Origin: Shewanella psychropiezotolerans
GTDB lineage: Bacteria; Pseudomonadota; Gammaproteobacteria; Enterobacterales; Shewanellaceae
DNA: 64,000 nt
Assembly (NCBI RefSeq): GCF_007197555.1
Contig: NZ_CP041614.1
Span: 124,001 to 188,000, forward strand
Direction of reading: 5' to 3'
In this document: one piece after another, positions 17,372 through 24,117 of the stretch
How positions within the stretch are numbered: position 1 is the stretch's first letter
Layout: every line of letters starts with the position of its first letter
Notes under the pieces: model-generated
The model's database searches: none
Told to the model about the DNA's origin: nothing
What the model saw: only the letters and a program-made list of their open reading frames with translations
Translations under genes and position numbers: made by a program

Positions 17372-19489
17372 GTGTCTTTTTTCCCTCGGGTATTCGGTGT
17401 TAATTGGAAGCAGATGCAAGCTAAGGTACGCTATCGAATTCTTATTCTAACTCTGTTACCTATATTATTGACCTTAGTCAGTTTAGTGTTTATCACTATC
17501 TACTGGAATATCAGTTATACTGGTAAGCAGTTGTTTATGAAGGTTAAGGCTGACCTCACGGTTGCTAGTAATACCTTGGTTTCGGTGCAGAAGAGTCAAG
17601 AGAAACAGCTAGAGTTAGTGATGAATTCCTGGAAGTTCCAGAATGAGTTCAGGCAGTTTGACACCAGACAAGATGACTCCCGTCAGCGGATAGATGTCTT
17701 CCTGGAGGCACAAAAACGAAAATTGGATTTGGATTTCCTCAGTTTGGTCAGTGTATCTGAAGCCGCTGCAGATCCGGATCTTCGCTTGATGTTGCCTAAG
17801 GTTAAGGGGAGTGATGCCTATTCTGGCATGATGGTATTGGGTCCAAATCGACTTGCCAGAATTGACCCTGATCTGGTTGCGGCTGCCAATATTATTTTGG
17901 TTGAAACTCCCAGATCTCAGAAGCTTACTAAGACGGTTGAAGATAGGGGCTTACTCAGCCGTAGCTTGTTACCTATTCCTGACGCTAGTGGCAATATCGC
18001 CTGGTATCTGGATGGTGGCATTCTATTTAACCGCGATACTCGCATAGTCGATCATATTCGTGATCTGGTTTATGACAAAGGTACCTTGCCTGAGCGCTCT
18101 ATAGGCACAGTGACCATCTTCCTCGATAATATTCGAATCAGTACCAATGTCCCCTTACATTTCTTTCCTAAGGATGGCGAAACCGAGGGACGCGCTTTGG
18201 GCAGCCTGGTATCGGAAGAGGTGAAACAGCAAGTATTGTCCCAGGGCCTGCTCTGGGTCGACCGAGCCTTCGTGTTTAATGATTGGTTTATCTCGGCATA
18301 TTCACCATTGGTAGATATTCAGGGTAACCGCATCGGCATGATTTATACCGGTTTCTCAGAATCGCCGTTTATTCATAATTATCTGCTGAATATCATAGAG
18401 TTGGGGACTATCTTAATGTTGGTTCTCTTGGTGTCTGGACTCTTAGTCTATCGCGGCGCTTACAGCTTGCTGCAGCCGATAGAGCGAATTCACCATGTGG
18501 TTAAAGCGGTCCAGTCCGGGCGTAATTTGCGCATCGGCTCTTTGGGCTTAGAGCGGGATAATGAACTCTCTAACTTAGCCGAACAGTTTGATCGTATGTT
18601 AGACCTGCTGCAGCGTAGAAATTCGCAGATCCAGGCGGCATCAGAGCTATTAGAGGATAAAGTCGAGGAGCGTACCCGTAGCTTGCAAGAGAAGACCGAA
18701 GAGCTGCAGAACAACGTGGCACTATTAAACGAGACTCGACAGCAGCTGGTTACTAACGAAAAATTGACTGCCTTAGGCGAACTGACCGCCGGGATAGCAC
18801 ACGAGATTAACAATCCGACAGCGGTGATCTTAGGCAATATGGAGCTGCTTAAGTCTGAACTCGGTGATAATGCAGACATAGTCGAGGAAGAGATAGATCT
18901 GGTTATTCAGCAGGTCGGACGTATTAGTACCATTATTCATAGTCTATTACAGTACAGTCGCCCCGGAGAGTTCAATGCGCCGCTGGAGATGCATCAACTG
19001 ACCCCTATCATCGAAGAGATGTTGGTGTTGGTGAGGCATTCGATTCAGGAGCAGGAAGTTATCTTGAACCAAGAACTCAATGCCAGTTATCCCATTGAGG
19101 TGAACCGGCCTCAGCTGCTACAAGTTTTGATTAATCTGGTGGTTAATGCAGCCCATGCTATGGATGAGCAGGGACGGATCTGGATCAGGACCTATGATTG
19201 GGTTTATATGGATGAACCTATCGGCGTCAAGATAGAGATTGAAGATGAAGGCAAGGGGATACCTCAGGAGCAACTGAGCCGAATTTTCGATCCCTTCTAT
19301 ACCACTCGAAAGGACGGTACAGGTTTAGGCTTATCTCTAAGCTACGGCATCATCAAACGTATTGGCGGCACTATCGAGGTGAGTTCTACAGTGGGCAAGG
19401 GTACCTTGTTCACCATAGGTTTATATCATAAGGCTAAAGAGGAGCGGACAGATACGCCATATGAAGGGCTACACTTCAATGGCACGTAA
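17372..19489 (+). CDS. Membrane sensor histidine kinase, partner of the sigma54 regulator
   Basis: A 705-residue kinase. Transmembrane segments at about 20-45 and 332-356 flank a large periplasmic sensor of single-cache type. HAMP (about 357-410), a coiled coil (about 415-465) and the HisKA domain follow, with His-477 in TAGIAHEINNP, then the ATPase domain with NLVVNAAHAM (N box), DEGKGIP and GTGLGLSLSYG. The GTG start directly follows the regulator stop, so the pair is cotranscribed. Kinases of this NtrB/DctB-like type often sense organic acids, but the ligand here is unknown. Confidence 0.9.
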   Translation: MSFFPRVFGVNWKQMQAKVRYRILILTLLPILLTLVSLVFITIYWNISYTGKQLFMKVKADLTVASNTLVSVQKSQEKQLELVMNSWKFQNEFRQFDTRQDDSRQRIDVFLEAQKRKLDLDFLSLVSVSEAAADPDLRLMLPKVKGSDAYSGMMVLGPNRLARIDPDLVAAANIILVETPRSQKLTKTVEDRGLLSRSLLPIPDASGNIAWYLDGGILFNRDTRIVDHIRDLVYDKGTLPERSIGTVTIFLDNIRISTNVPLHFFPKDGETEGRALGSLVSEEVKQQVLSQGLLWVDRAFVFNDWFISAYSPLVDIQGNRIGMIYTGFSESPFIHNYLLNIIELGTILMLVLLVSGLLVYRGAYSLLQPIERIHHVVKAVQSGRNLRIGSLGLERDNELSNLAEQFDRMLDLLQRRNSQIQAASELLEDKVEERTRSLQEKTEELQNNVALLNETRQQLVTNEKLTALGELTAGIAHEINNPTAVILGNMELLKSELGDNADIVEEEIDLVIQQVGRISTIIHSLLQYSRPGEFNAPLEMHQLTPIIEEMLVLVRHSIQEQEVILNQELNASYPIEVNRPQLLQVLINLVVNAAHAMDEQGRIWIRTYDWVYMDEPIGVKIEIEDEGKGIPQEQLSRIFDPFYTTRKDGTGLGLSLSYGIIKRIGGTIEVSSTVGKGTLFTIGLYHKAKEERTDTPYEGLHFNGT

Positions 19490-19583
19490 TTGTCCTCAGG
19501 TTATAGGACAAATCATAGAAAAGGTTGGAAGCGGCTAGCGTGTGAAGAGCAAGTTGGAGTGTAGAGGCTAGCGCGTAACAGGC

Positions 19584-19614
19584 AAAAAAAAGCCTGGAAA
19601 ATATAATCCAGGCT
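19584..19614 (-). terminator. Terminator of RyhB copy 1
   Basis: Arms AGCCTGGA and TCCAGGCT precede a run of eight T on the minus strand. Confidence 0.85.
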
Positions 19615-19720
19615 ATAAAGAGTGTGTGAGCAATGTCGTGCTTGAAAACTCAACTTCATTATGACCTATGACATAAAACATAGGCTGAATCACATAAGTA
19701 AGTATGAGTCCTTGGAACGC
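19584..19720 (-). ncRNA. ryhB: RyhB iron-responsive small RNA, copy 1
   Basis: The minus strand carries AGCACGACATTGCTCACA at 19625-19642, identical to the conserved base-pairing core of enterobacterial RyhB. It is followed by a terminator and preceded by a sigma70 promoter covered by a Fur box. RyhB is made when iron is scarce and, with Hfq, represses iron-using proteins such as superoxide dismutase and TCA enzymes (established for the family). The 5' part differs from the other two copies, which are closer to each other. The predicted length is about 137 nt, with the start placed from the promoter spacing. Confidence 0.88.
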
Positions 19721-19726
19721 ATGTAA

Positions 19727-19755
19727 ATAATAATCATTATCATTTGGTTGTGCAA
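19727..19755 (-). promoter_or_regulatory. Fur-controlled promoter of RyhB copy 1
   Basis: Minus strand TTGCAC, a 17-bp spacer, then TATTAT. The spacer and -10 contain AATGATAATGATTATTA, a close match to the Fur box, so Fur-Fe(II) would block RNA polymerase. Confidence 0.85.
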
Positions 19756-20096
19756 GTGTTTTGTTGGTATTTTATATTAATAAGGCTTGAGTTAACGTTT
19801 ACCACATTTAAAATCAATTGCTTACCTTGTATCTTGTTGATTGGAATTTACAAACAATTGTTTTGTCGTTTTATCAATTTGAATCTTCTACAAGCAGGAC
19901 ATAGGCTGATATTGGCCTTTCCTTCCTCTTGATACTCATTAACTGATAATGCATGGCTATTGGTTATGTTGATAGGACTGTTGCCGCTTGGTAGGAACAT
20001 ACTCACTCGTTGCCTTGCCTCTGAAGCGCTAAACTCTCGCTGAGTGACCACATCTTTATACGAATCGGTAATTGGCTTCAGTCAAAAATTTTAGGC

Positions 20097-20125
20097 AAAA
20101 AAATACCGGGATAAAAATATCCCGG
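20097..20125 (-). terminator. Terminator of RyhB copy 2
   Basis: Arms CCGGGATA and TATCCCGG with a four-base loop, followed by a T run on the minus strand. Confidence 0.85.
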
Positions 20126-20276
20126 CTATAAGAGTGTGTGAGCAATGTCGTGCTATGCGAAACCCGCTTAACTTTCCTATTGAGTTAACTCTTTAACAAA
20201 AGTTAATTAAATAGTGAGCTAATTAAAACAGAGATGAAGTGTTTACCTTAGCTTGTAGAGTGAGTTCTTGGAACGC
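20097..20276 (-). ncRNA. ryhB: RyhB iron-responsive small RNA, copy 2
   Basis: The second copy of the conserved core is at 20137-20154, again with its own terminator and Fur-box promoter. The predicted transcript is about 180 nt, longer than the ~90 nt E. coli RNA and closer to the long Vibrio form. It shares most of its length with copy 3, including the 5' segment TCATCTCTGTTTTAATT, so these two arose from a recent duplication. Confidence 0.88.
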
Positions 20277-20282
20277 ACGTAA

Positions 20283-20311
20283 ATAGTAATCATTATCATT
20301 ATCGTTGGCAA
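20283..20311 (-). promoter_or_regulatory. Fur-controlled promoter of RyhB copy 2
   Basis: Minus strand TTGCCA, a 17-bp spacer, then TACTAT. The spacer holds GATAATGATAATGAT, a strong Fur-box match. Confidence 0.85.
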
Positions 20312-20373
20312 GTTTTATTTGTGTGATTTTGGGTTTATTTTGTTGTTAGTTTGCTGCAGGGTGAAAATCAGGC

Positions 20374-20403
20374 AAAAAAATACCGGGATAAAAGATATCC
20401 CGG
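20374..20403 (-). terminator. Terminator of RyhB copy 3
   Basis: Arms CCGGGATA and TATCCCGG followed by a run of seven T on the minus strand. Confidence 0.85.
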
Positions 20404-20554
20404 CTATAAGAGTGTGTGAGCAATGTCGTGCTATGCAAAACTCGCTTAACTTTTCTATTTAGTTAACTTTTGATAAAAGTTAACTAAATAGTGAGCCAAT
20501 TAAAACAGAGATGAAGTGTTTACCTTAGCCTTGTAGAGTGAGTTCTTGGAACGC
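20374..20554 (-). ncRNA. ryhB: RyhB iron-responsive small RNA, copy 3
   Basis: The third copy of the conserved core is at 20415-20432. Upstream of the core this copy has a perfect 17-bp hairpin with a 3-base loop (20455-20491), which is imperfect in copy 2. It has its own Fur-box promoter and terminator. It is the first of the three in the direction of transcription; each copy is closed by its own terminator, so the copies are expected to be separate transcripts. Confidence 0.88.
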
Positions 20555-20560
20555 ATGCAA

Positions 20561-20589
20561 ATGGTAATCATTATCATTAAGTTTGGCAA
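20561..20589 (-). promoter_or_regulatory. Fur-controlled promoter of RyhB copy 3
   Basis: Minus strand TTGCCA, a 17-bp spacer, then TACCAT. The spacer holds TTAATGATAATGAT, a Fur-box match; the -10 is weaker than in copy 1. Confidence 0.82.
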
Positions 20590-20797
20590 GGTGTTTTATT
20601 GTAAAGATTTGGATAGTGGGCATGTTATTGATTTAGATGTTACATAAGCTTTTGTAAATAAAGATTATTAAGTGAAATGTTATTGCTGTTTTTATATCAA
20701 TTAATATTGATAATCACTTTAGGGGGAGGGCGACATCTCATGGATAAAATTGAGTGCCGCCATTTTAATGCATTGAAGCAGACATGGTCAGTGAATG

Positions 20798-21454
20798 CTA
20801 TCTGTTCGACATTTGTCTTATATTGACGATTCTTTGTTCTAAAACCTTTAATAAAATGCCGTATGCAGGTAGGAACAGGCATAAGCTCACGATAAGTTTG
20901 AAGCCATAATCGACACTGGCAATCTCAGGCCAGTGCTCTGCCATAAAGCTATCGCTGGAGGCGTAAAAAGCGATGCCAAAGAAGACGATAGTATCGATCA
21001 GGTTACCGACTAATGTTGAAGCGGCTGGGGCTACCCACCAGGACTTAGTATCCCTTAATTTAGCAAAAACGGTGATATCCATTAATTGGCCAACAAGATA
21101 GGCCGCAAAACTCGCAAATGCGATCCTAAATACAAAGCTATTAAATTCTGCCAGTGAGCCAATACCTTGAAAATTAGCCTGGTGAAACAGGACACCCATT
21201 AAATAAGAGATCACTAAAGCGGGAAGCATGGCCTTAAAAATTATTTTTCTCGCATTACTTTGGCCGAAAATTCTTACGGTCAGATCTGTAGCAAGATAAA
21301 CGAATGGGAAGCTGAATGCTCCCCAGGTTGTATGTAAGCCAAATATTTGAAACGGCATCTGAACTAAATAGTTACTGGCGCATATGATCAATATGTGGAA
21401 GCCGACGAGCAGAAGCAGTGCACGACGAATTTGTGTTGTCGATAAGGATAACAT
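20798..21454 (-). CDS. yhhQ: YhhQ-type queuosine precursor transporter
   Basis: A 218-residue integral membrane protein of the VUT/YhhQ family, which imports 7-cyano-7-deazaguanine or a related queuosine precursor. Family features include the segment PFVYLATDLTVRIFGQSNARKII, the DxxxVGQLMDITVFAKLRD region and WWVAPAASTLVGNLIDT. It has about six membrane segments. It stands alone downstream of the ryhB array region, with its own upstream spacer. Confidence 0.88.
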   Translation of the reverse strand: MLSLSTTQIRRALLLLVGFHILIICASNYLVQMPFQIFGLHTTWGAFSFPFVYLATDLTVRIFGQSNARKIIFKAMLPALVISYLMGVLFHQANFQGIGSLAEFNSFVFRIAFASFAAYLVGQLMDITVFAKLRDTKSWWVAPAASTLVGNLIDTIVFFGIAFYASSDSFMAEHWPEIASVDYGFKLIVSLCLFLPAYGILLKVLEQRIVNIRQMSNR

Positions 21455-22746: not shown

Positions 22747-24117
22747 TTAGAGTTCCGTTAATATCGAGAGTATTGTGGTGAGCTTATTTTCCAGCTCTAG
22801 CCACTCATCATCAGCCTCGGAGCCGGATACTATGCCTGCACCGGCGAACAAATTTATCCGCCCAGGTTCAATCAGCGCGCTGCGAATAGCGACGGCAAAT
22901 TCACTTTCATATTTATTAAAATATCCACAAGCACCAGCATACCAACCTCTGCTATATCCTTCTCGTTGACGAATAAAATTCATTGCCGGTTCTCTGGGGA
23001 GTCCTCCTACGGCTGGAGTTGGATGCAGGGCAAGTAATAGCTGAAAATCATCTACGCCAGGTTTTAACTCGGCGCGAATAGAGCGGTGTAGGTGCTGAAT
23101 ATGACTTAATTTAAACACCTTAGGTGTCTCTTCTGCGCCGACATAGTTACTTAAGGGAGTGAGAACATCGACGATATGCTGTCTTACTAACTGATTTTCA
23201 TGGCTATTTTTGCTATCTTCCATTAGCTGTTTTGCGAGTAAGGCATCTTCTTCTTGATTTAGCCCCCGTGTCGTCGTGCCAGCTAATGCCTCGGTAAATA
23301 GCTCCCTCTGACGGCGGCGAAATAGTCGCTCCGGCGTACAGGAGATAAAGGTACGATCCGGGCTAAACTGAAAGCCAAATTGAAAACTATTTGGGTTACG
23401 ACCTTGCCAGCAGGCAAGCAACATCCAAGGATTTATCTCTTCATTGACTTCTAGTTGAGTCAGGCGAGATAACACTACCTTGGGGGTCTCTTTGATAAAT
23501 TTAGGGTGAGTGACCCGATTAACTAATTCTGTCCAATGATAGTGATCCGGCCTGTCACTACGACCTAGCAAACTGACTTTATTTGGCGGTGGTAGTGGTC
23601 TAGGGGCGGCTAAGTTAGCTAAGCTCTCGATGGCATTTCGGCGCTCAGATTCGGTATCCTGGTTTTCACAATTTAAATTAACCAGTAGCTTATATTCAGT
23701 ACCACTGCGTCTTAACTCTATTCTGGGTAAAACAAATCTGGCCCTGCCAAATTCTGGCCAGGACTCAGTCGTTCTGTCGAACGCGACACCGCCGTAATAG
23801 CGAATGTCTTGATTATTGGTTAGTGTGCGTTGTTCCTGGTACGCCATGGCGAGCTGGTTATCGTCTACAGCCTCGTCATAGAAGAAGTCTTTGCAGCTAC
23901 CAATAGCGGAGACCTCTTCTTCGGTATCTCTGCCTTTCCAATAGATCCTTGGATAAATTGGTTGAGCTGATAACCAGGCTATAACGGGTAAGGCTTTGAT
24001 ACTGACAGACAGTTGAATGATGGGATCGCTAGGGGACTGGAAATTAAATTGTTTCAGCTTATCGGTAAGAGACGAAATAGCCTGTGACAGCAATAGGGCA
24101 GCCAATAAAAACTCCAA
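22747..24117 (-). CDS. menF: Isochorismate synthase, menaquinone pathway
   Basis: A 456-residue chorismate-using enzyme that makes isochorismate for menaquinone. The C-terminal half has the family motifs CTPERLFRRR, TEALAGTTTRG, LHPTPAVGGLPREPAM and YAGACGYF. The start is uncertain: no ATG is near, and TTG at 24117 or a nearby non-ATG codon must serve. menD is not adjacent. Menaquinone is central to anaerobic respiration in Shewanella-type organisms. Confidence 0.88.
   Translation of the reverse strand: MEFLLAALLLSQAISSLTDKLKQFNFQSPSDPIIQLSVSIKALPVIAWLSAQPIYPRIYWKGRDTEEEVSAIGSCKDFFYDEAVDDNQLAMAYQEQRTLTNNQDIRYYGGVAFDRTTESWPEFGRARFVLPRIELRRSGTEYKLLVNLNCENQDTESERRNAIESLANLAAPRPLPPPNKVSLLGRSDRPDHYHWTELVNRVTHPKFIKETPKVVLSRLTQLEVNEEINPWMLLACWQGRNPNSFQFGFQFSPDRTFISCTPERLFRRRQRELFTEALAGTTTRGLNQEEDALLAKQLMEDSKNSHENQLVRQHIVDVLTPLSNYVGAEETPKVFKLSHIQHLHRSIRAELKPGVDDFQLLLALHPTPAVGGLPREPAMNFIRQREGYSRGWYAGACGYFNKYESEFAVAIRSALIEPGRINLFAGAGIVSGSEADDEWLELENKLTTILSILTEL

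Follow-up and report, generated by a model that had tools for sequence, protein, structure and literature searches.

Under iron shortage, the small RNA RyhB turns off iron-rich proteins. The window (the whole 64-kb stretch of the Shewanella psychropiezotolerans genome that was analysed) was confirmed to hold three complete RyhB genes on its minus strand, at the locus where ryhB is usually found in the genus. They occupy the intergenic stretch 19490-20797, between a sensor histidine kinase gene on the plus strand and a queuosine-precursor transporter gene on the minus strand, and are called ryhB-A, ryhB-B and ryhB-C in the order of transcription. The features of the locus are as follows:

20798..21454, minus strand: upstream neighbour, queuosine-precursor (7-cyano-7-deazaguanine) transporter gene, Vut_1
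20557..20589, minus strand: promoter of ryhB-A, with -35 TTGCCA at 20589-20584, -10 TACCAT at 20566-20561 and Fur box at 20557-20575
20374..20554, minus strand: ryhB-A, long type; the predicted transcript (181 nt) begins at the conserved GCG and ends at the U-run; genus model 70.9 bits
20539..20554, minus strand: conserved 5' element GCGTTCCAAGAACTCA of ryhB-A, from a motif comparison of the three copies
20507..20517, minus strand: loop stretch ACUUCAUCUCU of ryhB-A with the 9-nt hairpin loop CUUCAUCUC, predicted unpaired probability 0.99, complementary to a CymA-type leader
20415..20432, minus strand: RyhB core of ryhB-A, exact 18-mer
20382..20404, minus strand: terminator of ryhB-A, from a terminator scan
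20283..20311, minus strand: promoter of ryhB-B, with -35 TTGCCA at 20311-20306, -10 TACTAT at 20288-20283 and Fur box at 20285-20303
20097..20276, minus strand: ryhB-B, long type, predicted transcript of 180 nt; genus model 71.4 bits
20261..20276, minus strand: conserved 5' element of ryhB-B, from the same motif comparison
20230..20240, minus strand: the same loop in ryhB-B, predicted unpaired probability 1.0, absent from ryhB-C
20137..20154, minus strand: RyhB core of ryhB-B, exact 18-mer
20105..20126, minus strand: terminator of ryhB-B, from the terminator scan
19723..19755, minus strand: promoter of ryhB-C, with -35 TTGCAC at 19755-19750, -10 TATTAT at 19732-19727 (both read directly) and Fur box at 19723-19741
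19584..19720, minus strand: ryhB-C, short type, predicted transcript of 137 nt; genus model 82.7 bits
19705..19720, minus strand: conserved 5' element GCGTTCCAAGGACTCA of ryhB-C, missed by the sequence-only reading
19625..19642, minus strand: RyhB core of ryhB-C, exact 18-mer
19591..19614, minus strand: terminator of ryhB-C, from the terminator scan
17372..19489, plus strand: downstream convergent neighbour, sensor histidine kinase gene

An isochorismate synthase-family gene also lies near the array (22747-24117 of the window, minus strand).

The sequence-only reading had described a RyhB core repeated three times on the minus strand, each copy lying between its own terminator and a -35/-10 promoter at 17-bp spacing overlaid by a Fur box, and each part of this description was borne out. 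Exactly three copies of the 18-mer AGCACGACATTGCTCACA are present, all on the minus strand (19625, 20137 and 20415), and none of 100 shuffled sequences contained three. The spacer between the -35 and -10, read directly, is 17 bp at all three promoters, and these carry the only Fur-box matches with at most 3 mismatches in 19 positions in the 64-kb window (shuffled mean 0.06). A promoter scanner listed the promoters of A and B as read and that of C in a different register; promoter-like matches as such were not in excess (6, versus a shuffled mean of 4.8). Three terminators, versus a mean of 1.1 in shuffles, were found at the expected places 3' of the cores, and all look strong, with stems of 9, 9 and 8 pairs and a U-run after each. 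The genome also encodes both fur and hfq.

The same reading held that the second and third copies (ryhB-B and ryhB-A) are alike over nearly their full length, which agrees with the 91% identity of their interiors. It was mistaken in crediting the first copy (ryhB-C) with only the core, promoter and terminator layout, because this copy also has the 16-nt 5' element GCGTTCCAAG[A/G]ACTCA, which matches A, B and C with zero mismatches, and a 25-nt block around the core that is identical in all three.

Assignment to a known RNA family depends on the model used. The Rfam RyhB model (RF00057) covers the core of all three copies, so that the case which the sequence-only reading had named as refuting it, a core outside every RyhB model match, did not arise. 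With 21.1 (copy C), 17.1 and 15.5 bits, however, the model does not reach the gathering cut-off of 55, and on the whole genome three other sites outscore copy C, which is the fourth best. Rfam was rejected as the arbiter of identity on account of that ranking, and Rfam alone would not identify the three genes. Since the published S. oneidensis RyhB was likewise missed by the Rfam model of its day and by BLAST, and was found by synteny (Yang et al., PMC2964681), the shortfall reads as a limit of the model. A model was also built from 46 Shewanella sequences, leaving out this genome (G000) and G009, G057, G026, G131, G156 and G174. This genus model gave 82.7, 71.4 and 70.9 bits here, with the next match in the window at 14, and 127 of the 129 genus genomes have a match to it, which is weak in two (G025, E 0.003; G059, E 1.4e-4). 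Of the features described for RyhB in Shewanella, three were found here: a Fur box over the promoter, a core complementary to the sodB leader, and a rho-independent terminator after the core. The alternative of a Fur-controlled small RNA unrelated to RyhB and analogous to PrrF has in its favour that, for copy C on the intergenic stretch, the PrrF model (RF00444) exceeds RF00057 (31.6 versus 21.1 bits). However, this score and the 18.6 bits for B are far under the PrrF gathering cut-off of 90, on which ground PrrF membership was rejected, and in the alignment it is chiefly the Fur-box end and the terminator that match. Together with a RyhB core that is exact, a locus common to the genus and the reach of the genus model, this leaves the analogue largely refuted and extremely improbable. 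The three are almost certainly RyhB genes.

The locus itself is widely shared. RyhB of Shewanella is described downstream of the VC0106/SO4716 orthologue; a transporter gene, possibly that orthologue, lies directly upstream here. When loci were fetched by the kinase gene, 68 of 80 (68 of the 72 Shewanella loci) held the 113 model matches, all on the strand opposite the kinase and within ~1.4 kb after its 3' end. The 12 loci without a match comprise 8 from Ferrimonas and 4 from Shewanella; two of the latter end with the contig at the kinase (L198, L217), one has none (L213), and in S. gaetbuli (L211) ryhB is ~5 kb from the kinase, close to the locus edge. Copy number was counted in two ways. 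At E<=0.01, a threshold that admits weak extra matches, one match was found in 62 of the 129 genomes, two in 46, three in 12, four in 6, thirteen in 1 and none in 2. All 19 genomes with three or more matches were then inspected for complete genes, defined as Fur box, 5' element, core and terminator. Three complete genes are present in eight (G000, G009, G057, G131, G156, G174, G018 and G136); six others (G126, G027, G172, G021, G005 and G051) owe their surplus to a weak match at another place in the genome, and five (G003, G159, G020, G130 and G141) to a unit that is damaged or has no promoter. Similarly, the 65 fetched loci with at least one complete gene hold one gene in 40 cases, two in 21 and three in 4. 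The comparison across Shewanella that the earlier reading had proposed thus shows one or two copies to be usual, and three complete genes in 8 of 129 genomes. Separately, G051 has three weak model matches at ~280-base spacing on a contig other than that of its ryhB (L147 ~1352-1985; contig C11 56351-56984).

Several arrangements of this kind have precedents. In S. oneidensis MR-1 one ryhB is described, between SO_4716 and SO_4717, with Fur box, core and terminator in common with the present genes and a length of ~127 or 168 nt, against 137 nt predicted for C (PMC2964681, PMC5826389); here there are three copies of two types, and the long copies, of ~180 nt, have an extra hairpin and loop. S. 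amazonensis is described as having a tandem ryhB pair with Fur boxes, two copies there and three here (PMC2964681). Pseudomonas aeruginosa PrrF1 and PrrF2 are likewise tandem, Fur-controlled, iron-sparing siblings, but there are two of them, 95% identical to each other; they also give a read-through RNA (PrrH), and PMC4211561 describes them as having no sequence homology with E. coli RyhB. According to the same source, Salmonella RfrA and RfrB (RyhB-1 and RyhB-2) are RyhB paralogues too, but distal and not tandem, and E. coli OmrA and OmrB are tandem siblings with both ends in common and different middles, from another family than the iron-sparing RyhB. RyhB in Shewanella, the tandem two-copy ryhB, tandem PrrF and other sibling small RNAs are thus already known. 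No report of a three-copy RyhB in Shewanella was found in the literature searched, in which most subscription journals were not represented. As far as that literature goes, the presence of a third copy, the conservation of two types and the match between loop and leader described below are new.

The predicted transcripts start at the conserved GCG, which in all three copies lies six bases 3' of the -10. In S. oneidensis-like copies the distance from GCG to U-run is ~129 nt, in agreement with the ~127-nt RNA that was published on the basis of start mapping and terminator prediction (PMC5826389). However, 168 nt was obtained by RACE (PMC2964681), and the GCG start is thus provisional. Within the predicted transcripts, the ACUC of the 5' element is predicted to pair with GAGU just upstream of the core as a closing stem. 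At least 4 pairs of this stem are present in the minimum free energy fold of 78 of 94 genus copies (83 of 94 with slightly different 3' ends), compared to 50 of 282 controls with shuffled interiors, and the fold z-scores of the three copies are -6.75, -4.99 and -4.35. Covariation is weak in these close sets, with two-sided changes in 1 of 49 and 3 of 33 predicted pairs. An internal TCATC was considered as a genus-wide middle element and set aside as not general; it occurs in 62 of the 94 copies and is missing from copy C and from S. oneidensis-like copies.

Judged from their sequences, the copies are of two old types, the near-identical long A and B and the short C. The order A, B, C, each gene with its Fur box, 5' element, core and terminator, is common to six species. 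Over the 15 pairs of these species, mean interior identity is 88% for A, 89% for B and 84% for C, compared to 42% for the spacers (38-40% when shuffled); the pair G000-G009, whose B-C spacer is still 89% identical, is uninformative in this respect. In a tree of 34 genes, the C copies of seven species form one clade (support 100/99) and 14 long copies another (100/95). Within the latter, the A copies of G000, G009, G057 and DT_112 (G026) group together with the single gene of S. benthica KT99 (97/91), while the long pairs group within species in G156 (98/99) and G174 (82/66). Additionally, A and B are 98-99% identical within species in G131 and G156, and the G131 interiors 99%. Because A groups across species while pairs group within G156 and G174, and because A and B of G131 are 99% alike, an ancestral duplication followed by local homogenisation of A and B is suggested.

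These patterns bear on why several copies are kept. Gene dose, one of two explanations offered by the sequence-only reading, is supported by the 91% interior identity of A and B and by the 98-99% identity within G131 and G156, which looks like homogenisation. The other, a division of targets between the diverged 5' parts, is supported as well, in that the 5' part of C is conserved in six species and a hairpin loop complementary to a cytochrome leader is found only in the long type. Dose might nevertheless be all that matters, with the core giving all three copies one and the same role and the differences of C reflecting functionless drift. The core and its 25-nt block are, after all, the same in every copy, A and B are kept alike, and PrrF1 and PrrF2 are described as largely redundant in P. 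aeruginosa (PMC4211561). However, drift does not sit easily with a C interior that averages 84% identity over six species whose spacers are near the shuffled level, nor with C lacking the loop that 14 of 14 long copies carry unchanged. We therefore consider dose alone unlikely, and both types, long and short, probably functional.

Likely traces of copy loss and gain occur elsewhere in the genus. The single ryhB of S. benthica KT99 (L155 7209-7391, minus strand) joins a long-type front to a short-type (C) terminator and is likely a crossover deletion between the long and short types, and DT_112 has two copies. Both cases, and the promoterless core-terminator debris beside ryhB in other species, would be in keeping with extra copies that are transient tandem duplicates, gained and lost by unequal crossing-over. 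Such turnover is an improbable account of the present array, given that six species keep all three genes in order with every element in place. The tandem same-strand layout, with 97 nt from the end of A to the start of B, also raises the question of whether read-through of the A or B terminators yields longer RNAs with extra functions, for which PrrH offers a precedent (PMC4211561). The strength of the three terminators argues against this, as does the lack of spacer conservation in most species pairs, and read-through has only a slim chance of being the explanation.

With regard to targets, the core is predicted to pair with the sodB leader across the Shine-Dalgarno region (UUGCUC with GAGCAA, CACUCU with AGAGUG). 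Against 100 shuffles the pairing has p values of 0.01-0.04 in five of five clade species, and of 0.07 in G141, the sixth genome tested. In S. oneidensis, the described RyhB targets are sodB, which it lowers, and ten c-type cytochromes including cymA (PMC2964681, PMC5826389).

The 11-mer ACUUCAUCUCU, which holds the 9-nt loop CUUCAUCUC, is invariant in 14 of 14 long copies and missing from C, and the loop has a predicted unpaired probability of 0.99-1.0 in A and B. The exact complement of the 11-mer occurs 11 times in G000, twice in the RyhB genes themselves and nine times elsewhere, compared to 4 for a reversed-pattern control; in G174 the control exceeds the matches (7 versus 5). All nine non-RyhB matches in G000 were inspected, and sites in four other searched genomes were inspected in part. 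Two of the nine lie in leaders, of a cytochrome gene and of pnp, and a third overlaps what is probably the start codon of a different gene; the others fall within genes, are antisense, or have no gene close downstream. The cytochrome is a 187-aa NapC/NirT protein with four CXXCH motifs, which by its size, family and motifs we take to be CymA-type; none of the names shown by the sources checked is CymA. The 11-nt complement lies 65-75 nt before the cytochrome start. In G000 it is 75 nt before the ATG and 9 nt after a TATAAT, which places it near the expected 5' end of the mRNA. The shuffled 140-nt G000 leader contained the exact 11-mer in 4 of 20000 trials, a figure to be read with the site having been found post hoc, after the genome search with the 11-mer complement.

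Ninety leaders of this cytochrome were fetched, 87 with a usable start, and 70 of these genomes were compared with their RyhB gene. A run of at least 11 pairs is present in 16 of the 70; in 15 it joins the A/B loop to the leader site (11-14 bp), and the sixteenth (G039) is unrelated to both. Shuffled leaders reach at least 10 pairs in 1.6%. The exact loop and the exact site are both present in 15 genomes and both absent in 44, with the loop alone in 4 and the site alone in 7. The site 10-mer AGAGATGAAG stands within a variable leader, and in one clade 22 of the 29 species have it exactly; it occurs in 4 of the 58 other leaders, all from genomes outside the RyhB comparison. Longer matches are seen in G021 (14 bp) and in G040 (12 bp, with the flank changed on both sides). 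The significance of the longest run is modest, with p values of 0.012 for A, 0.017 for B and 0.107 for C. The kinase tree covers 68 of the 70 genomes and puts the origin of loop and site together at about one point; independent co-gains were looked for there and not found, and the co-occurrence thus does not represent many independent events. Target division nevertheless has a concrete candidate in this loop-leader match, which appears to have originated about once.

Some genomes depart from the pattern. G174 has no close cymA at E<=1e-60, yet the loop is kept in both of its long copies, which implies either a different use for the loop or a recent loss of the gene. In G057, the CymA-type gene (L368, contig C56) matches residues 76-187 only, with an open frame of 129 aa, and may be broken; its RyhB-complementary leader site is kept. 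In another group, RyhB CUCAUCUCC or a shorter form of it can pair over 8-9 bp with the cytochrome GGAGAUGA(G) at the ribosome site. CymA is among the ten c-type cytochromes described as lowered by RyhB in S. oneidensis (PMC5826389), where any pairing must differ because S. oneidensis-like copies are without the A/B loop. A literature search on base pairing between cymA and RyhB in Shewanella found nothing beyond PMC5826389.

The reading that we favour, with a probability of about 0.7, is that the array provides a higher dose for shared targets and, through A and B only, control of at least one cytochrome; this figure applies to the entire explanation, which is weakest at the cymA step. With ample iron, Fur-Fe(II) would cover the -35 and -10 of each ryhB gene and keep it off; when iron is low, all three would be transcribed, each ending at its own terminator. 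In the predicted fold, the closing stem (ACUC with GAGU) would bring the 5' tail GCGUUCCA close to the core, most of which is single-stranded, and the type-specific arm would lie between tail and core. The shared core would pair across the Shine-Dalgarno region of sodB and lower it, as published for S. oneidensis. A and B would form a dose-raising pair kept alike, and C an old, separately conserved sister. Additionally, the 9-nt loop of A and B could kiss the 5' end of the CymA-type tetraheme cytochrome mRNA, which C, having no such loop, could not do. What was observed for this scheme is the sequences, their conservation and the complementarity, whereas Fur control, transcription, the use of Hfq, pairing in the cell and the sign of the effect on cymA are inferred. 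Action of the A/B loop on the cytochrome mRNA, as proposed from complementarity, is tentative and falls somewhat short of an even chance. A bolder form is that the array splits the job, with the core serving sodB-like targets and the A/B loop acting as a dedicated second seed that kisses the first nucleotides of the cytochrome mRNA. The anaerobic-respiration hub would then be tied to iron through the long copies alone, by a loop and site that arose together in one Shewanella clade and largely stayed matched. This form is speculative, and we lean against it.

It is an open question why a bacterium should retain more than one copy of a small RNA, and many of the known cases are pairs. Here one locus in one genus offers a natural series of one copy, two, three, a hybrid and debris, in which two types are stably conserved and a specific base-pairing hypothesis exists for what one type does and the other cannot. 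If true, it would link a well known iron-sparing RNA to a hub cytochrome of anaerobic respiration.

The other complementary sites were considered as well. At L383 (reverse strand; G000:C1:3534543-3534553) the loop complement spans the likely start codon, AGAG-ATG-AAG-T; the gene, by eye a periplasmic molybdenum reductase, is a possible second target of A and B. The pnp leader (gene name by eye; L274 1480-1540) has an ATCTCT...AGAGAT hairpin that is identical in G000, G057 and G174 and matches the A/B loop; it was set aside as a target because the site is inside this local hairpin. L254 was also dismissed, as it lies between two opposite-strand genes. For the short copy, the 12-mer TGAATCACATAA, complementary to a conserved stretch of C, was tried as a seed site and dropped, with one non-self match in G000 (L288) and matches at unrelated sequences in the other searched genomes.

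Beside complete ryhB genes in relatives, promoterless units of core plus terminator are found. G141 has two such arrays: head-to-tail units of 103 bp repeated 7.3 times (96% alike; L136 1-1373), and units of 119 bp repeated 2.8 times (99%; L137 2797-3055) that are cut by contig ends. Further units downstream of ryhB, single or in short repeats of ~100-140 bp, are present in G020 (L139), G130 (L138 2400-2700), G159 (L140), G003 (L033) and G018 (L047). Those of G159 and G003 are probably inherited debris, because their upstream sequence is common to both. The arrays were considered as working multi-seed RNAs, but are more likely debris since many of the terminator stems look imperfect by eye. 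Finally, in the second ryhB of G020 (L139, reverse strand, ~935-1205), an insertion of ~270 bp, whose ends look like inverted repeats, parts the promoter and 5' part from the core.
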